Assembly: GCF_016841685.1 (NCBI RefSeq) | Contig: NZ_JAENYR010000003.1 | Span: forward strand, 1-64,000 | DNA length: 64,000 nucleotides | Reading direction: 5' to 3' | Origin: Thiohalomonas denitrificans | Lineage (GTDB): Bacteria; Pseudomonadota; Gammaproteobacteria; Thiohalomonadales; Thiohalomonadaceae | Part shown: positions 22,004 to 31,931 of the stretch, piece by piece | Layout: each line of letters begins with the position of its first letter | Numbering within the stretch: position 1 is the first letter of the stretch | Made by a program: the position numbers and the translations under genes | The notes under the pieces: model-generated | Database searches by the model: none | What the model saw: the letters and a program-made list of their open reading frames with translations, nothing else | Told to the model about the DNA's origin: nothing

Positions 22004-23818
22004 ATGATAACTCGAGCGAGCTTTTTACGTGTCCCGCTGCTGATCGGACTTCTGACACTTCTGTTCGCCTCCTCGGTGGTTGCCGCCGAGGTTCGTATCG
22101 GCGTACTCGCCTACCGCGGTGTCGAGCAGGCGGTCGAGACCTGGGGCGGGACTGTCGAATATCTGCGGCGGACCCTTCCCGGCCATGAGTTCCGGTTGCT
22201 ACCTCTCGAGTTTATTGCACTGGATGCGGCGCTGTCCGCCGGAGAGCTGGACTTCGTACTCACCAATCCCGGCAATTATGTGCAGCTGGAGGCCGCATAC
22301 GGGATCTCGCGCATCGCCACTGTAGAGTCGCGCATCACCGATGACCCGAATTACAGCATTGGCTCGGCTGTGGTCGTACGCCGGGACAATCAGGCTCTGC
22401 AAGAACTGGATGATCTGAAGGACCGTTCTCTGCTGGCCGTGGACCGCGGCGCGTTCGGCGGCTATCAGGTGGCGGAGGCATCGCTGCGGGCAGCCGGGGT
22501 TGAACCCGAGGACCTTCGGCTTCGTTTCATCGGTTTCCCCATGGACCGTGTGGCCCATGCGGTCGCTGCCGGGGAGGCAGACGCCGGTATCCTGCGGGCC
22601 TGTCTGCTCGAAAGGATGGTGGCTGAGGGACAGCTGCCCCCAGGAGAATTGCGGGTGCTGGCGCCGCAAAACCACTACGGCTTCCGCTGCGCCGCTTCGA
22701 CTCCCCTCTATCCGGACTGGCCATTCGCGAAGGCCCGGCACACGTCGCGCGAGTTGGCGAAACGGGTGACACAGGCACTGTTTGCCCTCGAATCCGATGA
22801 AGCTCCGGCCGCATTTACGGGTTGGACCATCCCCGTGGACTATCAGCCGGTCCACGACCTGTTTCACCGTCTGGAACTGCCGCCCTACAGTCGTGATTCA
22901 CAGATGACGCCGGTGGAAATGGTTCGACGCTATTGGCCGTGGCTGCTGGGCCTGCTTCTGTCGGCGCTATGGGTGGTGTGGCATACTGCTCGGGTGGAGC
23001 AGCAGGTGCGGGTTCGCACGGCGCAGCTTTCTGCGGCCAATGAACAATTGAAACAGGCGATGCAGGAACAGGCAGCGGCGGAGAGGGTTATCCGCCAGCG
23101 GGAGGCGGAATTGGCCCACGCAGCGCGGGTGAATACCGTGGGTGAACTGGCGGCCGGAATGGCCCATGAAGTCAACCAGCCGCTGGCGGCCATCGGTAAC
23201 TACGCCGAAGGGTGTCTGGTACGGCTGCGGCAAAAGGAAGCCGCGCCGGAGCTGATCGATGCACTGCGGGAGATCGACACTCAAGCGGCCCGCGCCGGAG
23301 CCATTGTTCACCGTTTGCGTAGCTTCCTTCGCAAGGAGGAGCCGAGGCCCGTGCCGATCGATTTGAACGATGCGGTAATCGAGGCGGTTTCACTATTTGC
23401 GCCGGAGGCGCATCGGCATGGAGTGGCTTTGCAGACTGTTCTGGCGCCGTCGCTGCCGCGGGTATGCGGCGAATCGATTCAGCTCGAGCAGGTCGTTTTG
23501 AATTTGATGCGCAATGCGGTGGAGGTGCTGGAGGAGGCCGAGTGCGAGCGGAGAGAGATCGAGGTCATCTCCGCCCGCGTAGCCGATGGCGTTCGGGTTA
23601 CGGTGATGGACTCCGGTCCCGGCCTGAGCGAAGAAGCGCGGCAGCATCTGTTCGAGCCGTTTTTTACCACCAAGCCGCAAGGCATGGGTCTGGGGCTTTC
23701 CATCAGTCGCAGTATTATCGAGGCGCATGGTGGTGGGCTGGCGGTGGCCGATGCTCCGAACGGTGGTGCCGCCCTGGAATTTACGCTGCCCGTAGCGGAA
23801 GACGATGATGAACTTTGA
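22004..23818 (+). CDS. ttrS: TtrS-like tetrathionate sensor histidine kinase
   Basis: Membrane kinase expected to sense tetrathionate in the periplasm. The 604-residue protein has a signal peptide, a PhnD-like periplasmic binding domain (RIGVLAYRGVEQAVETW at the start, residues about 25-290), one TM helix (WPWLLGLLLSALWVVWH), a coiled coil, a HisKA box (GELAAGMAHEVNQPLAAIGNY) and an ATPase domain with N, G1 and G2 boxes (NLMRNAVEVL, DSGPGLS, GMGLGLS). It overlaps ttrR by 14 bases and lies directly upstream of the ttrBCA genes, which decides the assignment. Confidence 0.9.
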   Translation: MITRASFLRVPLLIGLLTLLFASSVVAAEVRIGVLAYRGVEQAVETWGGTVEYLRRTLPGHEFRLLPLEFIALDAALSAGELDFVLTNPGNYVQLEAAYGISRIATVESRITDDPNYSIGSAVVVRRDNQALQELDDLKDRSLLAVDRGAFGGYQVAEASLRAAGVEPEDLRLRFIGFPMDRVAHAVAAGEADAGILRACLLERMVAEGQLPPGELRVLAPQNHYGFRCAASTPLYPDWPFAKARHTSRELAKRVTQALFALESDEAPAAFTGWTIPVDYQPVHDLFHRLELPPYSRDSQMTPVEMVRRYWPWLLGLLLSALWVVWHTARVEQQVRVRTAQLSAANEQLKQAMQEQAAAERVIRQREAELAHAARVNTVGELAAGMAHEVNQPLAAIGNYAEGCLVRLRQKEAAPELIDALREIDTQAARAGAIVHRLRSFLRKEEPRPVPIDLNDAVIEAVSLFAPEAHRHGVALQTVLAPSLPRVCGESIQLEQVVLNLMRNAVEVLEEAECERREIEVISARVADGVRVTVMDSGPGLSEEARQHLFEPFFTTKPQGMGLGLSISRSIIEAHGGGLAVADAPNGGAALEFTLPVAEDDDEL

Positions 23819-24422
23819 GCCGACGCTATTCGTAGTGGATGACGACGAGGCCATGCGCCGTTCGTTGAAATGGTTGCTGGAGACGCTGCGGCTCCCGCTG
23901 CAGACGTTCGACTCTGCGGAGGCTTTTCTGGAGGGTTACCGGGGTGAACCTGGAGTTCTGATCCTGGATGTACGCATGCCGGGAATGAGTGGGCTGGAAT
24001 TGCTGGAGCGGTTGGCTGAAAGTCATCCCTCCCTGCCCGCAATCCTGCTAACAGCCCACGGCGATGTGCCGATGGCGGTACGGGCCATGCGTGCCGGTGC
24101 CTTCGATTTCGTACAGAAGCCCTACAATGGTCAGGCACTTCTCGAGCGGGTACAGGCCGCGACAGGAGAGGCTCGGCATCGGCACCAGCGGCAGGGTGAA
24201 CGCGATTCGGCCGCTGCCCGGCTGGAGTCGCTGACACCGCGGGAGTGCGAGGTACTGGAGCTGGTTGCGGCTGGCGAACCCAACAAGCGTATTGCCCGGG
24301 AGCTCGGTATCAGCCTCCGGACCGTTGAGGTTCACCGTCACAATCTAATGGAAAAGCTGGATGCCCATACCGTTGGGAACGTGATTCGACTCTATCTCTC
24401 CGCCACGAAGGGGATCCCTTAA
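23805..24422 (+). CDS. ttrR: TtrR-like response regulator (FixJ/NarL class)
   Basis: A 205-residue two-domain regulator: a receiver with the acidic pocket VVDDDEA and phospho-acceptor Asp in LILDVRMPGMSG, the switch Thr in LLTAHGD and Lys in VQKPYN, then a LuxR-type helix-turn-helix (LTPRECEVLELVAAG ... ELGISLRTVEVHR). It is the partner of the overlapping ttrS and likely activates the ttrBCA promoter; paired ACCACAATAC direct repeats in the following gap are candidate binding sites. Confidence 0.9.
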   Translation: MMNFEPTLFVVDDDEAMRRSLKWLLETLRLPLQTFDSAEAFLEGYRGEPGVLILDVRMPGMSGLELLERLAESHPSLPAILLTAHGDVPMAVRAMRAGAFDFVQKPYNGQALLERVQAATGEARHRHQRQGERDSAAARLESLTPRECEVLELVAAGEPNKRIARELGISLRTVEVHRHNLMEKLDAHTVGNVIRLYLSATKGIP

Positions 24423-24428
24423 GTAAAA

Positions 24429-24459
24429 ACCACAATACGCCTGCGGTTAACCACAATAC
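24429..24459 (+). promoter_or_regulatory. Direct repeat pair, candidate TtrR operator
   Basis: ACCACAATAC occurs at 24429-24438 and again at 24450-24459. The start-to-start spacing of 21 bp is two helical turns, placing both on the same DNA face. The pair lies in the 100-bp gap before ttrB, where an activator for the reductase genes would bind. The repeat is seen directly; the TtrR assignment is inferred. Confidence 0.5.
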
Positions 24460-24485
24460 CCTCGTGATCGTGACGGGGGTTAGCC

Positions 24486-24499
24486 TTGATGTGCATCAA
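24486..24499. promoter_or_regulatory. Perfect FNR/Anr-type site before ttrB
   Basis: TTGATGTGCATCAA is an exact TTGAT-N4-ATCAA palindrome. It ends 23 bp before the ttrB start, which is unusually close for class II activation at the same gene. Oxygen control of tetrathionate reductase by FNR is established in Salmonella, so the context fits. Confidence 0.75.
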
Positions 24500-24522
24500 G
24501 CATACGAGACGAGGTTGGCCCC

Positions 24523-25242
24523 ATGGATACATCCCGCCGTAACTTCTTCAAAGGTATCGCCGTCGGAGCAGCGGCGACAGCCGTTGCTCCGAGCCACGCC
24601 GCCACCGAACGTCCCACGGGCGACTCCCGCCAGCGCTGGGGTATGGTCATCGACCTGCGTCGCTGCATCGGCTGTCAGGCCTGTACCGTTGCCTGTGGTA
24701 CCGAAAATCGCACTCCGCTTGGCAGCTATCGCACCGTGGTCTCCCAGTATGAGCTCAGCGAGGGCGGCCGGCCACGCCGCGCCGTACTGCCGCGTCTTTG
24801 CAATCATTGCGAGGACCCGCCCTGCATCCCGGTCTGCCCGGTGGATGCCACCTTTCAACGTGCCGACGGCATCGTGCTGGTGGATAACACCCGCTGCGTC
24901 GGTTGCGGCTACTGCGTTCAGGCCTGTCCCTACGATGCGCGCTTCATCAATGCAGAGACCGGTACGGCCGACAAGTGCACCTTCTGTGCGCACCGTGTCG
25001 ATGCGGGACTGCTGCCGGCCTGTGTCGAGACCTGCGTCGGCGGGGCCCGCGTGTTCGGTGACCTCAATGACCCCAAGACTGCGGTCTCGCAGTTGATCGC
25101 AGAACATCGCGTCAGCCGTCTCAACGAACAGGCCGGCACCGAACCGCAGGTTCGTTACATCGGCCTCGACGGGAGGCTGCAAAGCAAGGTGGAGGGAGTG
25201 CCGGCCCCGCTGCGTGCATCCCTTGAGGAGGTGATGTCATGA
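24523..25242 (+). CDS. ttrB: TtrB, iron-sulfur subunit of tetrathionate reductase
   Basis: Electron-transfer subunit carrying electrons from TtrC to TtrA. The 239-residue protein has a Tat signal (SRRNFFKGIAVGAA) and four cysteine clusters of the DmsB/PsrB type: CIGCQACTVAC, CNHCEDPPCIPVCPVD, CVGCGYCVQACP and CTFCAHRVDAGLLPACVETC, giving four [4Fe-4S] centres. It is the first gene of the reductase operon, with FNR-like and direct-repeat sites just upstream, and its stop overlaps the ttrC start. Confidence 0.9.
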   Translation: MDTSRRNFFKGIAVGAAATAVAPSHAATERPTGDSRQRWGMVIDLRRCIGCQACTVACGTENRTPLGSYRTVVSQYELSEGGRPRRAVLPRLCNHCEDPPCIPVCPVDATFQRADGIVLVDNTRCVGCGYCVQACPYDARFINAETGTADKCTFCAHRVDAGLLPACVETCVGGARVFGDLNDPKTAVSQLIAEHRVSRLNEQAGTEPQVRYIGLDGRLQSKVEGVPAPLRASLEEVMS

Positions 25243-26294
25243 ATCCCGAAGTGCTTCAGTTGACTGGCTTCAGTCAGCAACCCGCCTGGTTGCCCTGGGC
25301 CGTACAGTACTTCTTCATCATCGGCCTCAGTGTCGGTGCCTTTCTGATTACGCTGCCGGCCTACGTGCTGCGATGGTCACCTGATCAGCGGGCAGCCCGA
25401 GCTGCGCTGCTGGTTGCCCTGACTACTGGTCTGGCGGCGCCGGTTGCGCTCCTCGCCGACCTGCATCAGCCGGATCGGTTCTGGCATTTCTACGCCTTTG
25501 GACAGGCCGGTTCCTGGATGGCGTGGGGATCGTTCTTCCTGCCGGCCTATGTAGGACTGCTGACTCTCTACGGCTGGCTGGCACTGCGGCCGGAGTTGGC
25601 TCAGCGGGCCCGGGACCCTGGTCCGGTTGGTCGCGTTGCCGGATTGCTGGCAGGCTCCGGGGTCGAATTGCCACGCGCACGGCGTAGTGTGGGCTGGGTG
25701 ACTGCAGTCGCTGCAGCCCTGGTTGCCCTCTATACCGGCGCGGAAGTGGCGGTGGTTGCAGCCCGACCCCTTTGGCATTCGGCGCTGCTGCCGGTGGTCT
25801 ATCTCACCACCGGGATCGCCGGCGGTGCCGGGTTGGCACTGCTGTTTGTCGGCCGCTTCGAGACACCGAGACGGACACTTTTTCGCTGGCTATGGGCTGC
25901 TCTGGCGCTTACCGGGCTCACGGTGCTCGCCTGGATGCTGGGGGTCAGCGGTAGCGGCACGGCTCACGCGCTGTTGCGACTCGCTACCGAATACCGCCCG
26001 GTGTCCTTCGGACTCTGGCTGCTGTTCGGCTTGCTACTGCCGCTGGTGCTGGCCTGGTTCCATCGTGCGCCGATAGCAGCCGGCTTGCTGGCAATTTCCG
26101 GCGCCTGGATGTGGCGCTGGGAGATCTTCATGGCCGGACAAGGTATTCCGAAAAACGACGTCGGATTTTATGGCGTTCACCTGTCGCTCGGGCCCGAAGG
26201 CCTGTTGGGTATCGTCGGTACGCTTGGACTATGGGTGCTGATCGCGCTGGCGTTGACCGCGCTGCTGCGTCCCACCGCTAATGTACAAGGTTGA
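25239..26294 (+). CDS. ttrC: TtrC, NrfD-type membrane anchor of tetrathionate reductase
   Basis: Quinol-oxidising membrane subunit. The 351-residue protein has about nine TM helices and NrfD/PsrC features: QYFFIIGLSVGAFLITLPAY in the first helix, DLHQPDRFWHFYAFGQAGSWMAWGS between helices 2 and 3, and the late WRWEIFMAGQGIPKNDVGFY. It overlaps ttrB by four bases, and ttrA starts 10 bp after its stop. Confidence 0.88.
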   Translation: MNPEVLQLTGFSQQPAWLPWAVQYFFIIGLSVGAFLITLPAYVLRWSPDQRAARAALLVALTTGLAAPVALLADLHQPDRFWHFYAFGQAGSWMAWGSFFLPAYVGLLTLYGWLALRPELAQRARDPGPVGRVAGLLAGSGVELPRARRSVGWVTAVAAALVALYTGAEVAVVAARPLWHSALLPVVYLTTGIAGGAGLALLFVGRFETPRRTLFRWLWAALALTGLTVLAWMLGVSGSGTAHALLRLATEYRPVSFGLWLLFGLLLPLVLAWFHRAPIAAGLLAISGAWMWRWEIFMAGQGIPKNDVGFYGVHLSLGPEGLLGIVGTLGLWVLIALALTALLRPTANVQG

Positions 26295-26304
26295 GGAGTC
26301 TCCC

Positions 26305-29300
26305 ATGAGCAAGAATCGTCGTCAGTTCATCAAGGGTATGGGTGCAGTGGGTGCCCTGGCTGCTTTCGGTATCGGTTACAGCCACACTGCCGATCAATTT
26401 CTGAAGGGCTTCCTGGATCGCACCCGCGCCAATGATCCCTTCGCGGGTAATGCCCCCCAACCCGAATACCAGGTTGACCCGGTGACCGGTCAGGTCCGGC
26501 TCAATCCGGCGCAGCAGGTGTCGTACACGGTATGCATGGGGTGCACCACCCTGTGCGGTGTTCGGGTTCGTATCGACAAGGCCAACGACCAGGTTTTGCG
26601 GGTTAGCGGCAATCCCTACCACACCCTGTCCGCTGATCCGCACCTGCCGTACGAGACCTCGGTGCTGGAGAGCTTCGCCGGGGTGAGCCGGCACAAGGAA
26701 CGGGGGCTGGAAGGCCGCGCCACTGCCTGTGCCCGCGGCAATGCGGTGTTGGCCAAGCTCGACAGTCCACAGCGGGTGCGCGTACCGCTGAAGCGGATTG
26801 GCAAACGCGGCGCCGGGCTATGGGCACCGATCTCCTTCGAACAGCTGGTCGAAGAGGTAGTCGAGGGCGGTGACCTGTTCCGGGAAGGCGACGTCGGGGG
26901 GCTGCGGGCGATTCGTGATGTGGAGACCCCGCTCGACCCGGAGCAGCCCGAATTGGGGCCGAAGTCGAACCAGATGGTGTTCATGTCGGCCTTCAACGAT
27001 GGTCGTCTGGCCTTCGCCAAGCGCTTTGCCATCAAGAGCTTCGGCACTCGTAATTTCGCCGGCCACCGCTCCTACTGCGGGCTGTCGATGCGCTCGGGCT
27101 ATGCCGCGCTGCTCGACAACTGGAAGGCGCAGCCGCACCTGAAGCCGGATTTCGCCAACTCCGAATTTCTGCTGTTCATCGGCACCTCACCGGGCAATGC
27201 CGGTAACCCGTTCAAACGCCAGGGTCACCTGATCGCGAAAGGACGCAGCCGTGGCCTCAAGTACGTGGTGGTCGATCCGGTGCTGACCAATGCCGACAAT
27301 ATTGCAGCCGAGGACAACGGCCGCTGGTTGCCGATTCGGCCCAACACCGACGGCGCCCTGACCATGGGCATGATCCGCTGGATCATGGAACAGGACGCCT
27401 ACGACGCCAGATTCCTGGCCAGCCCCAATCCCGCGGCCGCGACCAGGGTGGGCGAAGCAAGCTGGTCCAACGCCACTCACCTGGTGATCGTCGAGCCGGG
27501 CGCTGATTTCGGGCGCATGCTGCGTGGCTCAGACCTCGGCCTCGAGCCGAAAGGAGGTGATGACGATCCGTTTGTGGTGGCGGACGAGATGGGGAAACTG
27601 CACTCCCACACGGCAGGTGATCGCGGCGAGCTGTTCTACCAGGGGCAAGCTCCGTTGGCCGAAGGCGGTGAGGTGGCGGTTGCCACCAGTCTGGCGCTGC
27701 TGCGTGAGGCCGCCTTCGAGCACACACTGGCGGAATACGCCGATGCCTGTGATATTGCCGAGGCCGAGATTGCCGAACTCGCCCGTGAGTTCACCAGTCA
27801 CGGAAAGCGCGCCGCGGTGGATACCCATGGCGGTACCATGGGCAGCAACGGCTTCTATGCCGCCTATGCCATCGTCATGCTCAATGCCCTGATCGGCAAC
27901 CTCAATCATCAGGGTGGTACCAGTGCCGGTGGTGGTCGCTTCAAGGATGTGGCGCCGGGGCCACGCTACAACCTGGCCACTTTCAAGGGCATGCAGAAGC
28001 CCAAGGGTGTCGGTCTCGGCCGCAACGGTTTTCCGTACGAGAAAACCACCGAGTTCAAACGCAAGCAGGCGGTTGGCAAGCCCTACCCGTCGGAGGCACC
28101 CTGGCTCCCTCTCAGCCCGAACATGAGTTCGGAGTTCCTGCCGGCCATGCTCAATGGTTATCCCTACAGCGCCAAGGCACTGATCCTCTGGAGTACCAAC
28201 CCGGTCTATGGGGTGTCCGGCATGACGGAACAGGTAAGGGAGCGGCTCGCCAATCCAAAGGTCGTGCCACTCATCGTTTCCATCGATCCGTTTATCAATG
28301 AGACGAACCAGTACGCCGACTATATCGTTCCCGATTCGGTACTCTACGAGAGCTGGGGCTGGGCGAGCGCCTGGGGTGGCCATCTGGCCAAGGTCAACTC
28401 TGCCCGCTGGCCTGTGGTCGAACCGCGTCAGGCGCGTGCGGCTAACGGGCAGGTAATGGAGATGGAAAGCTTCCTTATTGCGGTCGGCAAGCGTATGGGG
28501 CTGCCGGGCTATAGTGCCGGTGCGATTACCGATAGTGACGGTAACGAGTATCCGATCGAGCGGGCTGAGGACTGGTATCTGCGGGCAGCGGCCAACATTG
28601 CATTCGACGGCACGCCGGTACCCGATGCCGACGATGACGAGATCGCCGCCACCGGTGTTACCCGCCTCTTGCCGGAACTGAAACGGGTGCTCAAGCGCGA
28701 GGAGTGGCGCAAGGTGGCTTACCTCTATGCCCGCGGTGGGCGCTTCGAGGACCCGGAAGCGGCCTATGATGATAAATTTCTCCGCAAGCGCTACCCGCGG
28801 GCGATGCAGCTATACAATGAGCAATTGGCTCTGGCGCGCAATAGCCTTACCGGCAAGCGCTATCGGGGCACCCCGTATTGGCAGCCACCCGTGCTTGCCG
28901 ATGGAACGCCACTGGAAGAGGTCTACCCGGCTGAGGTATGGCCGTTGCGGGTTGTCAGTACCAAATCGCAGTTGCAGTCATCGCACACCATCGGGACCGC
29001 ACGGCTGCAGCAAATCCAGCCGGCCAATCCTATCGGGTTGCACTACGACGATGCCGCGAAGCTCGGCGTAAAAACCGGCGACCACATCCGGGTAGTCAGC
29101 CCCGAAGGCAGTGTGGAGGGGGTTGTCCTGGTCCGTGGCGGGATACAGCGCGGCGTGATCGGGATCGAGCACGGTTTCGGTCACCGGGAGCTCGGAGCAC
29201 GGATGCATCGGCTGGGTGAAAACCCGTTGCCGAAGGCAGTCGCCGCCGGAGCCGGCGTCAACCACAACGAACTCGGCTGTCCGGAACCGCACCGCCCCGG

Positions 29301-29376
29301 AGTCACCTTCCTGACCGACTGGGTAGTGGGCAACGTCGCCAGGCAAGGGTTGCCGGCACGTATCGAGTTCATTTGA
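26305..29376 (+). CDS. ttrA: TtrA, molybdopterin catalytic subunit of tetrathionate reductase
   Basis: Catalytic subunit reducing tetrathionate to thiosulfate in the periplasm. The 1023-residue protein starts with a Tat-like signal (NRRQFIKGMGAVGALAAFG), then an N-terminal [4Fe-4S] motif (CMGCTTLCGV with a distal ACARG), and a Mo-ligand cysteine in GHRSYCGLSMRSGY. Further molybdopterin-binding segments include LIGNLNHQGGTSAGG and the C-terminal domain with LHYDDAAKLGVKTGDHIRV. The ATG at 26305 follows GAGGAG and is preferred to the 26281 ORF start. Related arsenate or thiosulfate reductases are alternatives, but the ttrSRBC context favours tetrathionate. Confidence 0.9.
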   Translation: MSKNRRQFIKGMGAVGALAAFGIGYSHTADQFLKGFLDRTRANDPFAGNAPQPEYQVDPVTGQVRLNPAQQVSYTVCMGCTTLCGVRVRIDKANDQVLRVSGNPYHTLSADPHLPYETSVLESFAGVSRHKERGLEGRATACARGNAVLAKLDSPQRVRVPLKRIGKRGAGLWAPISFEQLVEEVVEGGDLFREGDVGGLRAIRDVETPLDPEQPELGPKSNQMVFMSAFNDGRLAFAKRFAIKSFGTRNFAGHRSYCGLSMRSGYAALLDNWKAQPHLKPDFANSEFLLFIGTSPGNAGNPFKRQGHLIAKGRSRGLKYVVVDPVLTNADNIAAEDNGRWLPIRPNTDGALTMGMIRWIMEQDAYDARFLASPNPAAATRVGEASWSNATHLVIVEPGADFGRMLRGSDLGLEPKGGDDDPFVVADEMGKLHSHTAGDRGELFYQGQAPLAEGGEVAVATSLALLREAAFEHTLAEYADACDIAEAEIAELAREFTSHGKRAAVDTHGGTMGSNGFYAAYAIVMLNALIGNLNHQGGTSAGGGRFKDVAPGPRYNLATFKGMQKPKGVGLGRNGFPYEKTTEFKRKQAVGKPYPSEAPWLPLSPNMSSEFLPAMLNGYPYSAKALILWSTNPVYGVSGMTEQVRERLANPKVVPLIVSIDPFINETNQYADYIVPDSVLYESWGWASAWGGHLAKVNSARWPVVEPRQARAANGQVMEMESFLIAVGKRMGLPGYSAGAITDSDGNEYPIERAEDWYLRAAANIAFDGTPVPDADDDEIAATGVTRLLPELKRVLKREEWRKVAYLYARGGRFEDPEAAYDDKFLRKRYPRAMQLYNEQLALARNSLTGKRYRGTPYWQPPVLADGTPLEEVYPAEVWPLRVVSTKSQLQSSHTIGTARLQQIQPANPIGLHYDDAAKLGVKTGDHIRVVSPEGSVEGVVLVRGGIQRGVIGIEHGFGHRELGARMHRLGENPLPKAVAAGAGVNHNELGCPEPHRPGVTFLTDWVVGNVARQGLPARIEFI

Positions 29377-31202: not shown

Positions 31203-31931
31203 TCAGCGATCGGTAAGGACGAAAAATTCCTCCTCCAGCTCATCGAGGATATTGTCGACCTTGCAGAAGCGGCGAAGCGCATCGATATCGTGGATGTGAA
31301 CTTCATCTTCCGTCACATCGACACCTTCATTGCGCAGGGTGACAATGGCCCGGGACATGCTCTCCGGTGTCATGTGCAGGCGGGCGGCAATCAGCTTCTT
31401 GACAAAGGGAAGTGCCAGCGTGTTGCTGTCGCCTTTTTCCACCAGGCCCAGCAGGTAGATCCCCAGCCGCTGTGCCGCCGTCCTCAGGCGCAGGTCCTTT
31501 ACGTGCCGGACCATTTGCCGATACTGGTTTGCCAGCGAGGCGACCATGGTCAGCGCCAGTTGCGATTCGTCCGATACCAGCTGGCGCAACAGTGCACTCG
31601 GGACCAGCAGGACTTCGACATCGGTGATGGCCTGGGCCGACATGAGGTACGGCTTGGAGGTCAGTACGGCCGCCATCAGGAAGCAGTCGACAGGTTGCAG
31701 CAGCTCGATGATCGTCTCCCGGCCATCGAGAGAGCTGGTTGTCATTTTAACGGTTCCGTCGAACAGCACATGCAGGTGATCGGGCTTGTCGCTGGCCTTG
31801 AACAGGAAGTTCTTGGGACCGTAGGAGGCAGGAACCGCCTCCTGGCTAAGTGCTTTTAGCACCCCGGCGGAGAGGTCGCAGAAAAGCGGTACGCGACGTA
31901 GCGCCAGTTCGATATCACTCGGGTTTTGCAT
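31203..31931 (-). CDS. Crp/Fnr-family regulator upstream of cynS
   Basis: A 242-residue transcription factor with an N-terminal cyclic-nucleotide-binding-like beta-barrel (residues about 20-130), a dimerisation helix and a helix-turn-helix (KKLIAARLHMTPESMSRAIVTLRN). The N-terminus has only one cysteine (LFCDL), so no Fnr-type iron-sulfur cluster is expected. The C-terminus carries an acidic extension (DELEEEFFVLTDR). The ligand is unknown; a DNR-like NO/heme sensor or another effector is possible. Position suggests control of cyanase. Confidence 0.8.
   Translation of the reverse strand: MQNPSDIELALRRVPLFCDLSAGVLKALSQEAVPASYGPKNFLFKASDKPDHLHVLFDGTVKMTTSSLDGRETIIELLQPVDCFLMAAVLTSKPYLMSAQAITDVEVLLVPSALLRQLVSDESQLALTMVASLANQYRQMVRHVKDLRLRTAAQRLGIYLLGLVEKGDSNTLALPFVKKLIAARLHMTPESMSRAIVTLRNEGVDVTEDEVHIHDIDALRRFCKVDNILDELEEEFFVLTDR

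Follow-up and report, generated by a model that had tools for sequence, protein, structure and literature searches.

Our comparative analysis of the window, i.e. the entire 64-kb stretch of Thiohalomonas denitrificans DNA under investigation, suggests that the 100-bp gap between ttrR and ttrB is the promoter of ttrBCA, in which tandem TtrR boxes would activate transcription and a Fnr-type protein bound on +1 would brake it. We consider this combined reading reasonably probable. Comparison with other ttr loci shows the two predicted TtrR boxes, their spacing and the position of the putative -10 element.

The ttr locus and the start of ttrB

The genes on both sides of the gap are arranged on the plus strand in the order ttrS-ttrR-ttrB-ttrC-ttrA:

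22004..23818, plus strand: ttrS, sensor histidine kinase with Phosphonate-bd, HisKA and HATPase_c domains (PF12974, PF00512, PF02518)
23805..24422, plus strand: ttrR, response regulator of the FixJ/NarL type (PF00072 and PF00196), recognition helix LRTVEVHR with R172
24511..24514, plus strand: Shine-Dalgarno site GAGG, 8 nt 5' of the ttrB ATG
24523..25242, plus strand: ttrB, 4Fe-4S subunit with Tat signal
25239..26294, plus strand: ttrC, membrane subunit of the NrfD type
26281..29376, plus strand: ttrA, molybdopterin catalytic subunit

TtrS unites a periplasmic Phosphonate-bd domain with a histidine kinase core, and TtrR is a regulator with a FixJ-like receiver and a GerE domain that adjoins ttrBCA. 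The top NCBIfam family of ttrS is TtrS (341.6 bits at a cut-off of 750 bits), and TtrA, TtrB and TtrC likewise find their best match in the corresponding Ttr families below the curated cut-offs (1179/1750, 324/416 and 194/314, respectively), thus indicating a divergent member of the Ttr family. The top score of TtrR is FixJ, followed by TtrR in second place. The ttrB product (24523-25242) exceeds the cut-off of DsrO (234 vs 200) and not that of TtrB (324 vs 416), a score pattern that may lead automatic annotation to label it DsrO.

The ATG of ttrB is fixed at 24523 by the preceding Shine-Dalgarno site and by the Tat motif SRRNFFKG (PF10518 match). The proposal of the preliminary description that the true start could be located further downstream had to be abandoned, because such a start would delete the Tat signal; an upstream start was rejected as well, since the in-frame codons back to the stop at 24487-24489 comprise no ATG, GTG or TTG.

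A second TtrSR-like pair is encoded elsewhere in the same genome (L018, contig C135, 4580-7338) and also in the congener (L012). Its TtrR is 50-51% identical, and its neighbour is an acyl-CoA-synthetase-like gene; relatives occur in many members of the family, with ttrBCA not nearby. TtrR homologues of about 50% identity were accordingly discarded from the promoter comparison, as they belong to this different pair. The search for TtrR boxes at the two loci L018 and L012 returned zero matches.

Tandem TtrR boxes upstream of ttrB

The following elements were located or predicted in and around the gap:

24420..24436, plus strand: predicted distal TtrR box TAAGTAAAAACCACAAT, core AGTA-AAAA-CCAC at 24422-24433, predicted centre at -65.5
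24428..24438, plus strand: direct-repeat copy 1, AACCACAATAC
24443..24454, plus strand: predicted proximal TtrR box GCGG-TTAA-CCAC, AATACC extension to 24460, predicted centre at -44.5
24449..24459, plus strand: direct-repeat copy 2, AACCACAATAC
24481..24486, plus strand: predicted -10 element TAGCCT, at a distance of 30 nt from the proximal-box CCAC
24486..24499, plus strand: Crp/Fnr-type palindrome TTGATGTGCATCAA, centre at 24492.5 (about -0.5 if counted from the predicted start)
24493 (24492-24493), plus strand: predicted transcription start, placed from the -10 element

The two copies of the 11-nt repeat lie 21 bp apart from start to start, exactly as the preliminary description had reported. 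Neither this repeat nor the TTGATNNNNATCAA site discussed below is expected by chance. The 3.79-Mb genome harbors four exact copies of AACCACAATAC, compared with about 0.55 expected from the base composition, and the probability that any copy is joined by another one no more than 100 bp away is about 6e-6. The two remaining exact sites were dismissed, as they are located inside or beside unrelated genes and lack a tandem. A tandem CCACAATA-N13-CCACAATA with zero mismatches occurs once per genome in the host and in the congener, in each case at ttrB. The whole gap differs from its counterpart in the congener by just three substitutions (24447, 24469 and 24472), whereas the fourfold-degenerate sites of the adjoining genes diverge by 10-15%, which would correspond to about 12 changes in the gap. 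All three substitutions are located outside the box arms, the -10 element, the FNR palindrome and the Shine-Dalgarno site.

The repeats very probably represent the strong right halves of two tandem TtrR boxes, and the idea that the direct repeat per se is the operator unit was given up. The downstream copy forms the right arm of the imperfect inverted repeat GCGG-TTAA-CCAC, which deviates from the published ttrR box GTGG-N4-CCAC by a single mismatch (7/8 defined bases agree); this inverted repeat lies upstream of the predicted -10 of ttrB, with its half-site 30 nt before it. The distal box is devoid of a good left arm and overlaps the stop codon of ttrR (24420-24422).

Our comparison was based on 80 ttrA-anchored loci from public genomes, in which ttrB, ttrR and ttrS were located and the DNA upstream of ttrB was extracted. 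A de novo motif was trained on the 45 TtrR-bearing loci, while the window and the congener were held out. The resulting motif is a palindrome close to TAGGGAAAANCCNCTAG; it ranks copy 1 in first and copy 2 in fifth place among 127,962 positions of the window, and both copies together constitute the sole tandem motif pair in its 64 kb. The repeats thereby hold their place as the candidate TtrR motif of the preliminary description, albeit more exactly as half-sites. In Vibrio, Aeromonas, Moritella and Arhodomonas, GTGGAAAACCACAATA is located 73-94 bp 5' of ttrB, and the gammaproteobacterium L088 harbors GTGGTTAACCACAATA upstream of the gene; all of them share the exact GTGG-N4-CCAC followed by AATA.

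The distal box is conserved in other loci as well, where it precedes the proximal box by 22 (or 21) bp, with a mean log-odds of +4.8 at offset -22 vs about -19 elsewhere (z 5.3). Pairs of boxes spaced by 21-22 bp and followed by a -10 element at constant distance are also encountered repeatedly in ttr loci of alpha- and betaproteobacteria. Genome-wide tests relied on pattern and family searches. The tandem pattern proved specific; a genome scan for single boxes with three mismatches allowed yielded more than 2,500 matches and was uninformative. Residue 172 of TtrR, located where RTVEV begins, and the half-site covary in 24 of 24 loci: R172 is associated with CCAC (9/9), and K172 with half-sites whose third base is C (15/15). 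This covariation comprises two changes on the TtrR tree, one of them in the betaproteobacterial MAG L089, thus indicating that the correlation is not purely inherited, even if few events underlie it.

The promoter frame and the transcription start

In 21 of 29 loci, a TANNNT hexamer begins exactly 29 nt past the proximal half-site, and hardly any such hexamers occur at other offsets; when the promoter frame was defined more loosely, it was recovered in 26 of 50 loci compared with 0.8 in shuffles. The offset of 30 nt in the window, vs 29 in the other loci, counts against the frame. The predicted hexamer TAGCCT is also the -10 of the FNR-only ttrB promoters of Halomonas, and its recurrence under two different activators backs the assignment in the window. 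A consensus scan let no sigma-70 promoter pass, which is expected where a promoter depends on an activator. The transcript probably starts at about 24493, a position obtained from the comparative frame and in agreement with the proposal of the preliminary description that transcription starts elsewhere than inside ttrB.

The Fnr-type palindrome

The palindrome TTGATGTGCATCAA is a perfect match to TTGATNNNNATCAA and separated by 23 bp from the ATG of ttrB, as the preliminary description had correctly recognized. The expectation for perfect TTGATNNNNATCAA sites is about 2e-5 per 100 bp and about 0.9 for the genome, in which 13 were found. Their neighbours are nirS, a norB-like gene, nosZ, narK, napF, cydA, moaA, cytochrome c and Nap-like genes, and a few of the 13 are located in unrelated places. 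The distance from the site to the start codon is 30.5 nt at ttrB, compared with 64.5-404.5 nt at the 11 other sites measured in the genome. All 14 bp of the palindrome are unchanged in the congener, for which the probability is about 0.17 at 12% divergence and thus not significant alone. Within our sample, the +1 position of a Fnr-type site at ttrB is confined to this genus (two genomes).

A start at about 24493 would place the centre of the palindrome at about -0.5, so that a repressor site is the likeliest reading; this is the geometry of a repressor site, with the start itself deduced from the -10 element. We slightly favour the view that a Fnr-type protein at +1 represses ttrB. The suggestion of the preliminary description that FNR acts as a repressor is hence retained for the sign of the effect, whereas the protein may be a homologue either of FNR/ANR or of DNR. 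The opposite sign of the FNR effect on ttrB in Salmonella is the main argument against a brake (cited in PMC5408782).

The genome encodes, among others, an FNR homologue with a CxxCx5C motif as well as a homologue of DNR, for which 3dkw is the best PDB match. Both congeners possess FNR and DNR homologues, and these exhibit E--SR recognition helices. A cysteine-rich Crp/Fnr protein with an E--SR recognition helix is encoded on L145 (contig C134 of the same genome, 910-1746, minus strand); no counterpart was seen among the Crp/Fnr matches of the congener. The window itself harbors an FtrB-like gene of the Crp/Fnr family (31203-31931, minus strand; recognition helix PESMSR), which is located about 2 kb beyond ttrA beside a gene for cyanase and is kept in the congener.

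Alternative explanations

The palindrome might represent a class II activator site with FNR at -41.5 and a transcript from about 24534, and the arithmetic of the preliminary description (24492.5 + 41.5 = 24534, inside ttrB) is correct. The position of -41.5 is canonical for an FNR activator (PMC3688515) and ttr expression in Salmonella needs FNR (PMC5408782), but a transcript from about 24534 would be devoid of the ttrB start codon and the Tat signal. Furthermore, the hexamer 22 bp past the site (24522-24527), where the FNR-dependent ttrB promoters of Halomonas exhibit their -10, reads CATGGA, and the TtrR-driven start upstream of 24534 is better supported, which makes class II activation very improbable. 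It is fairly unlikely, and still worth considering, that the TtrR-driven promoter is correct and the palindrome no repressor site, so that a Fnr-type protein bound at +1 aids transcription, acts on an antisense transcript or is without effect. Many targets of Fnr-type proteins are activated, ttr is an anaerobic pathway (PMC5408782), and the symmetry of the palindrome would allow it to serve the minus strand; however, FNR is not known to activate from +1, and GAGGGT, located 22 nt past the palindrome on the minus strand, is a poor -10.

A functionless chance match of the palindrome appears improbable in view of the low expectation for TTGATNNNNATCAA and the location of the genomic sites mostly beside genes of anaerobic respiration, even though the position at +1 is restricted to one genus and conservation between two congeners alone is not significant. 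The assumption that the direct repeats belong to a non-TtrR element, namely a terminator-like hairpin or the operator of another regulator, can draw on a single terminator-like match, which spans 24428-24448 on the minus strand. No minus-strand gene was seen to end at this location, so that the hairpin was rejected for want of a gene to terminate, and many genera share the motif, its spacing and the -10 frame at ttrB, in covariation with TtrR; such an element is hardly credible.

A model for the control of ttrBCA

In the favoured reading, TtrR boxes combined with a brake at +1, phosphorylated TtrR would bind as two dimers on one face of the DNA, two helical turns apart (-65.5 and -44.5), and bring RNA polymerase to a weak promoter whose -10 is TAGCCT and whose start is at about 24493. 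A protein of the Crp/Fnr family on the palindrome would block initiation, and the candidates are the FNR/ANR homologue, active without oxygen, and the DNR homologue, active with nitric oxide. TtrR together with tetrathionate would thus serve as the accelerator and the Fnr-type protein as the brake, and ttrBCA would give way to denitrification, which is otherwise the chief user of these sites in the genome. More tentatively, and with some doubt, we envisage a two-input switch of ttrBCA in the genus that is turned on by tetrathionate via TtrR and turned off during denitrification by a Crp/Fnr protein responding to nitric oxide or oxygen. If true, this switch would provide a direct molecular basis for the hierarchy of electron acceptors and invert the usual sign of FNR on ttr; the inverted position of the Fnr-type site is a simple candidate mechanism for ranking tetrathionate respiration below denitrification.

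According to the literature searched, the TtrR operator has been defined experimentally only in Vibrio. The operator rule derived here is concrete and testable: two palindromic boxes 21-22 bp apart, a -10 separated from the proximal half-site by about 29 nt, and a residue 172 that fits the half-site base.

Comparison with known systems

In Vibrio parahaemolyticus, the verified ttrR box GTGG-N4-CCAC is located just upstream of the -35, and its deletion abolished the binding of TtrR (PMC11293645). TtrR activates ttrBCA via this inverted repeat, to which the proximal box of the window fits in 7/8 positions, but one box has been described there compared with two here, 21 bp apart; independence of FNR was reported, whereas a Fnr-type palindrome covers the predicted start in the window (PMC11293645). 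An FNR-like site is present 28 bp upstream of the TtrR box, centre to centre, in Vibrio, Aeromonas, Moritella and Arhodomonas. Two further loci (L074 and L078) exhibit a degenerate FNR-like site (TTTATTTCGATCAA and TTTATCTCGATCAT, respectively) between two TtrR boxes, about 80 bp before ttrB.

Shewanella baltica and Salmonella share a ttrSR-controlled ttrBCA and the involvement of FNR, with a near-consensus FNR site in S. baltica, but FNR is needed for or aids activation there, while in the window the TtrR boxes come first and the Fnr-type site follows at the predicted start (PMC5408782). Transcription of ttrB in Salmonella needs FNR, its nitrate repression of ttr is still ascribed to an unknown pathway, and the TtrR operator of the Shewanella promoter used in gut biosensors was left inconclusive (PMC5408782).

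Promoters of the Halomonas type harbor an FNR site alone at about -41.5. This site precedes ttrB by 103-111 bp and is followed after exactly 22 bp by a -10 resembling TAGCCT/TAGGCT, which is class II geometry. The six loci L141, L142, L118, L126, L124 and L120 have a perfect FNR site and no ttrSR within the fetched DNA, and ttrBCA in loci of this type looks driven by FNR only. The tandem-box promoters of alpha- and betaproteobacteria agree with the window in the spacing of the boxes (21-22 bp) and the -10 about 29-30 nt past the proximal half-site; they differ in their CCCC/CTCC half-sites, vs CCAC here, and in the lack of a Fnr-type site at +1.

In Escherichia coli, FNR activates mostly from -41.5 (19/23 promoters), while its repressing sites reach +1 (PMC3688515). 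The fnr promoter of E. coli controls another gene, and the palindrome at ttrB, where repression is deduced from position, is paired with a two-component activator; both promoters exhibit a similar palindrome at the same position relative to the start, namely the -0.5 from which fnr is autorepressed (PMC3688515).
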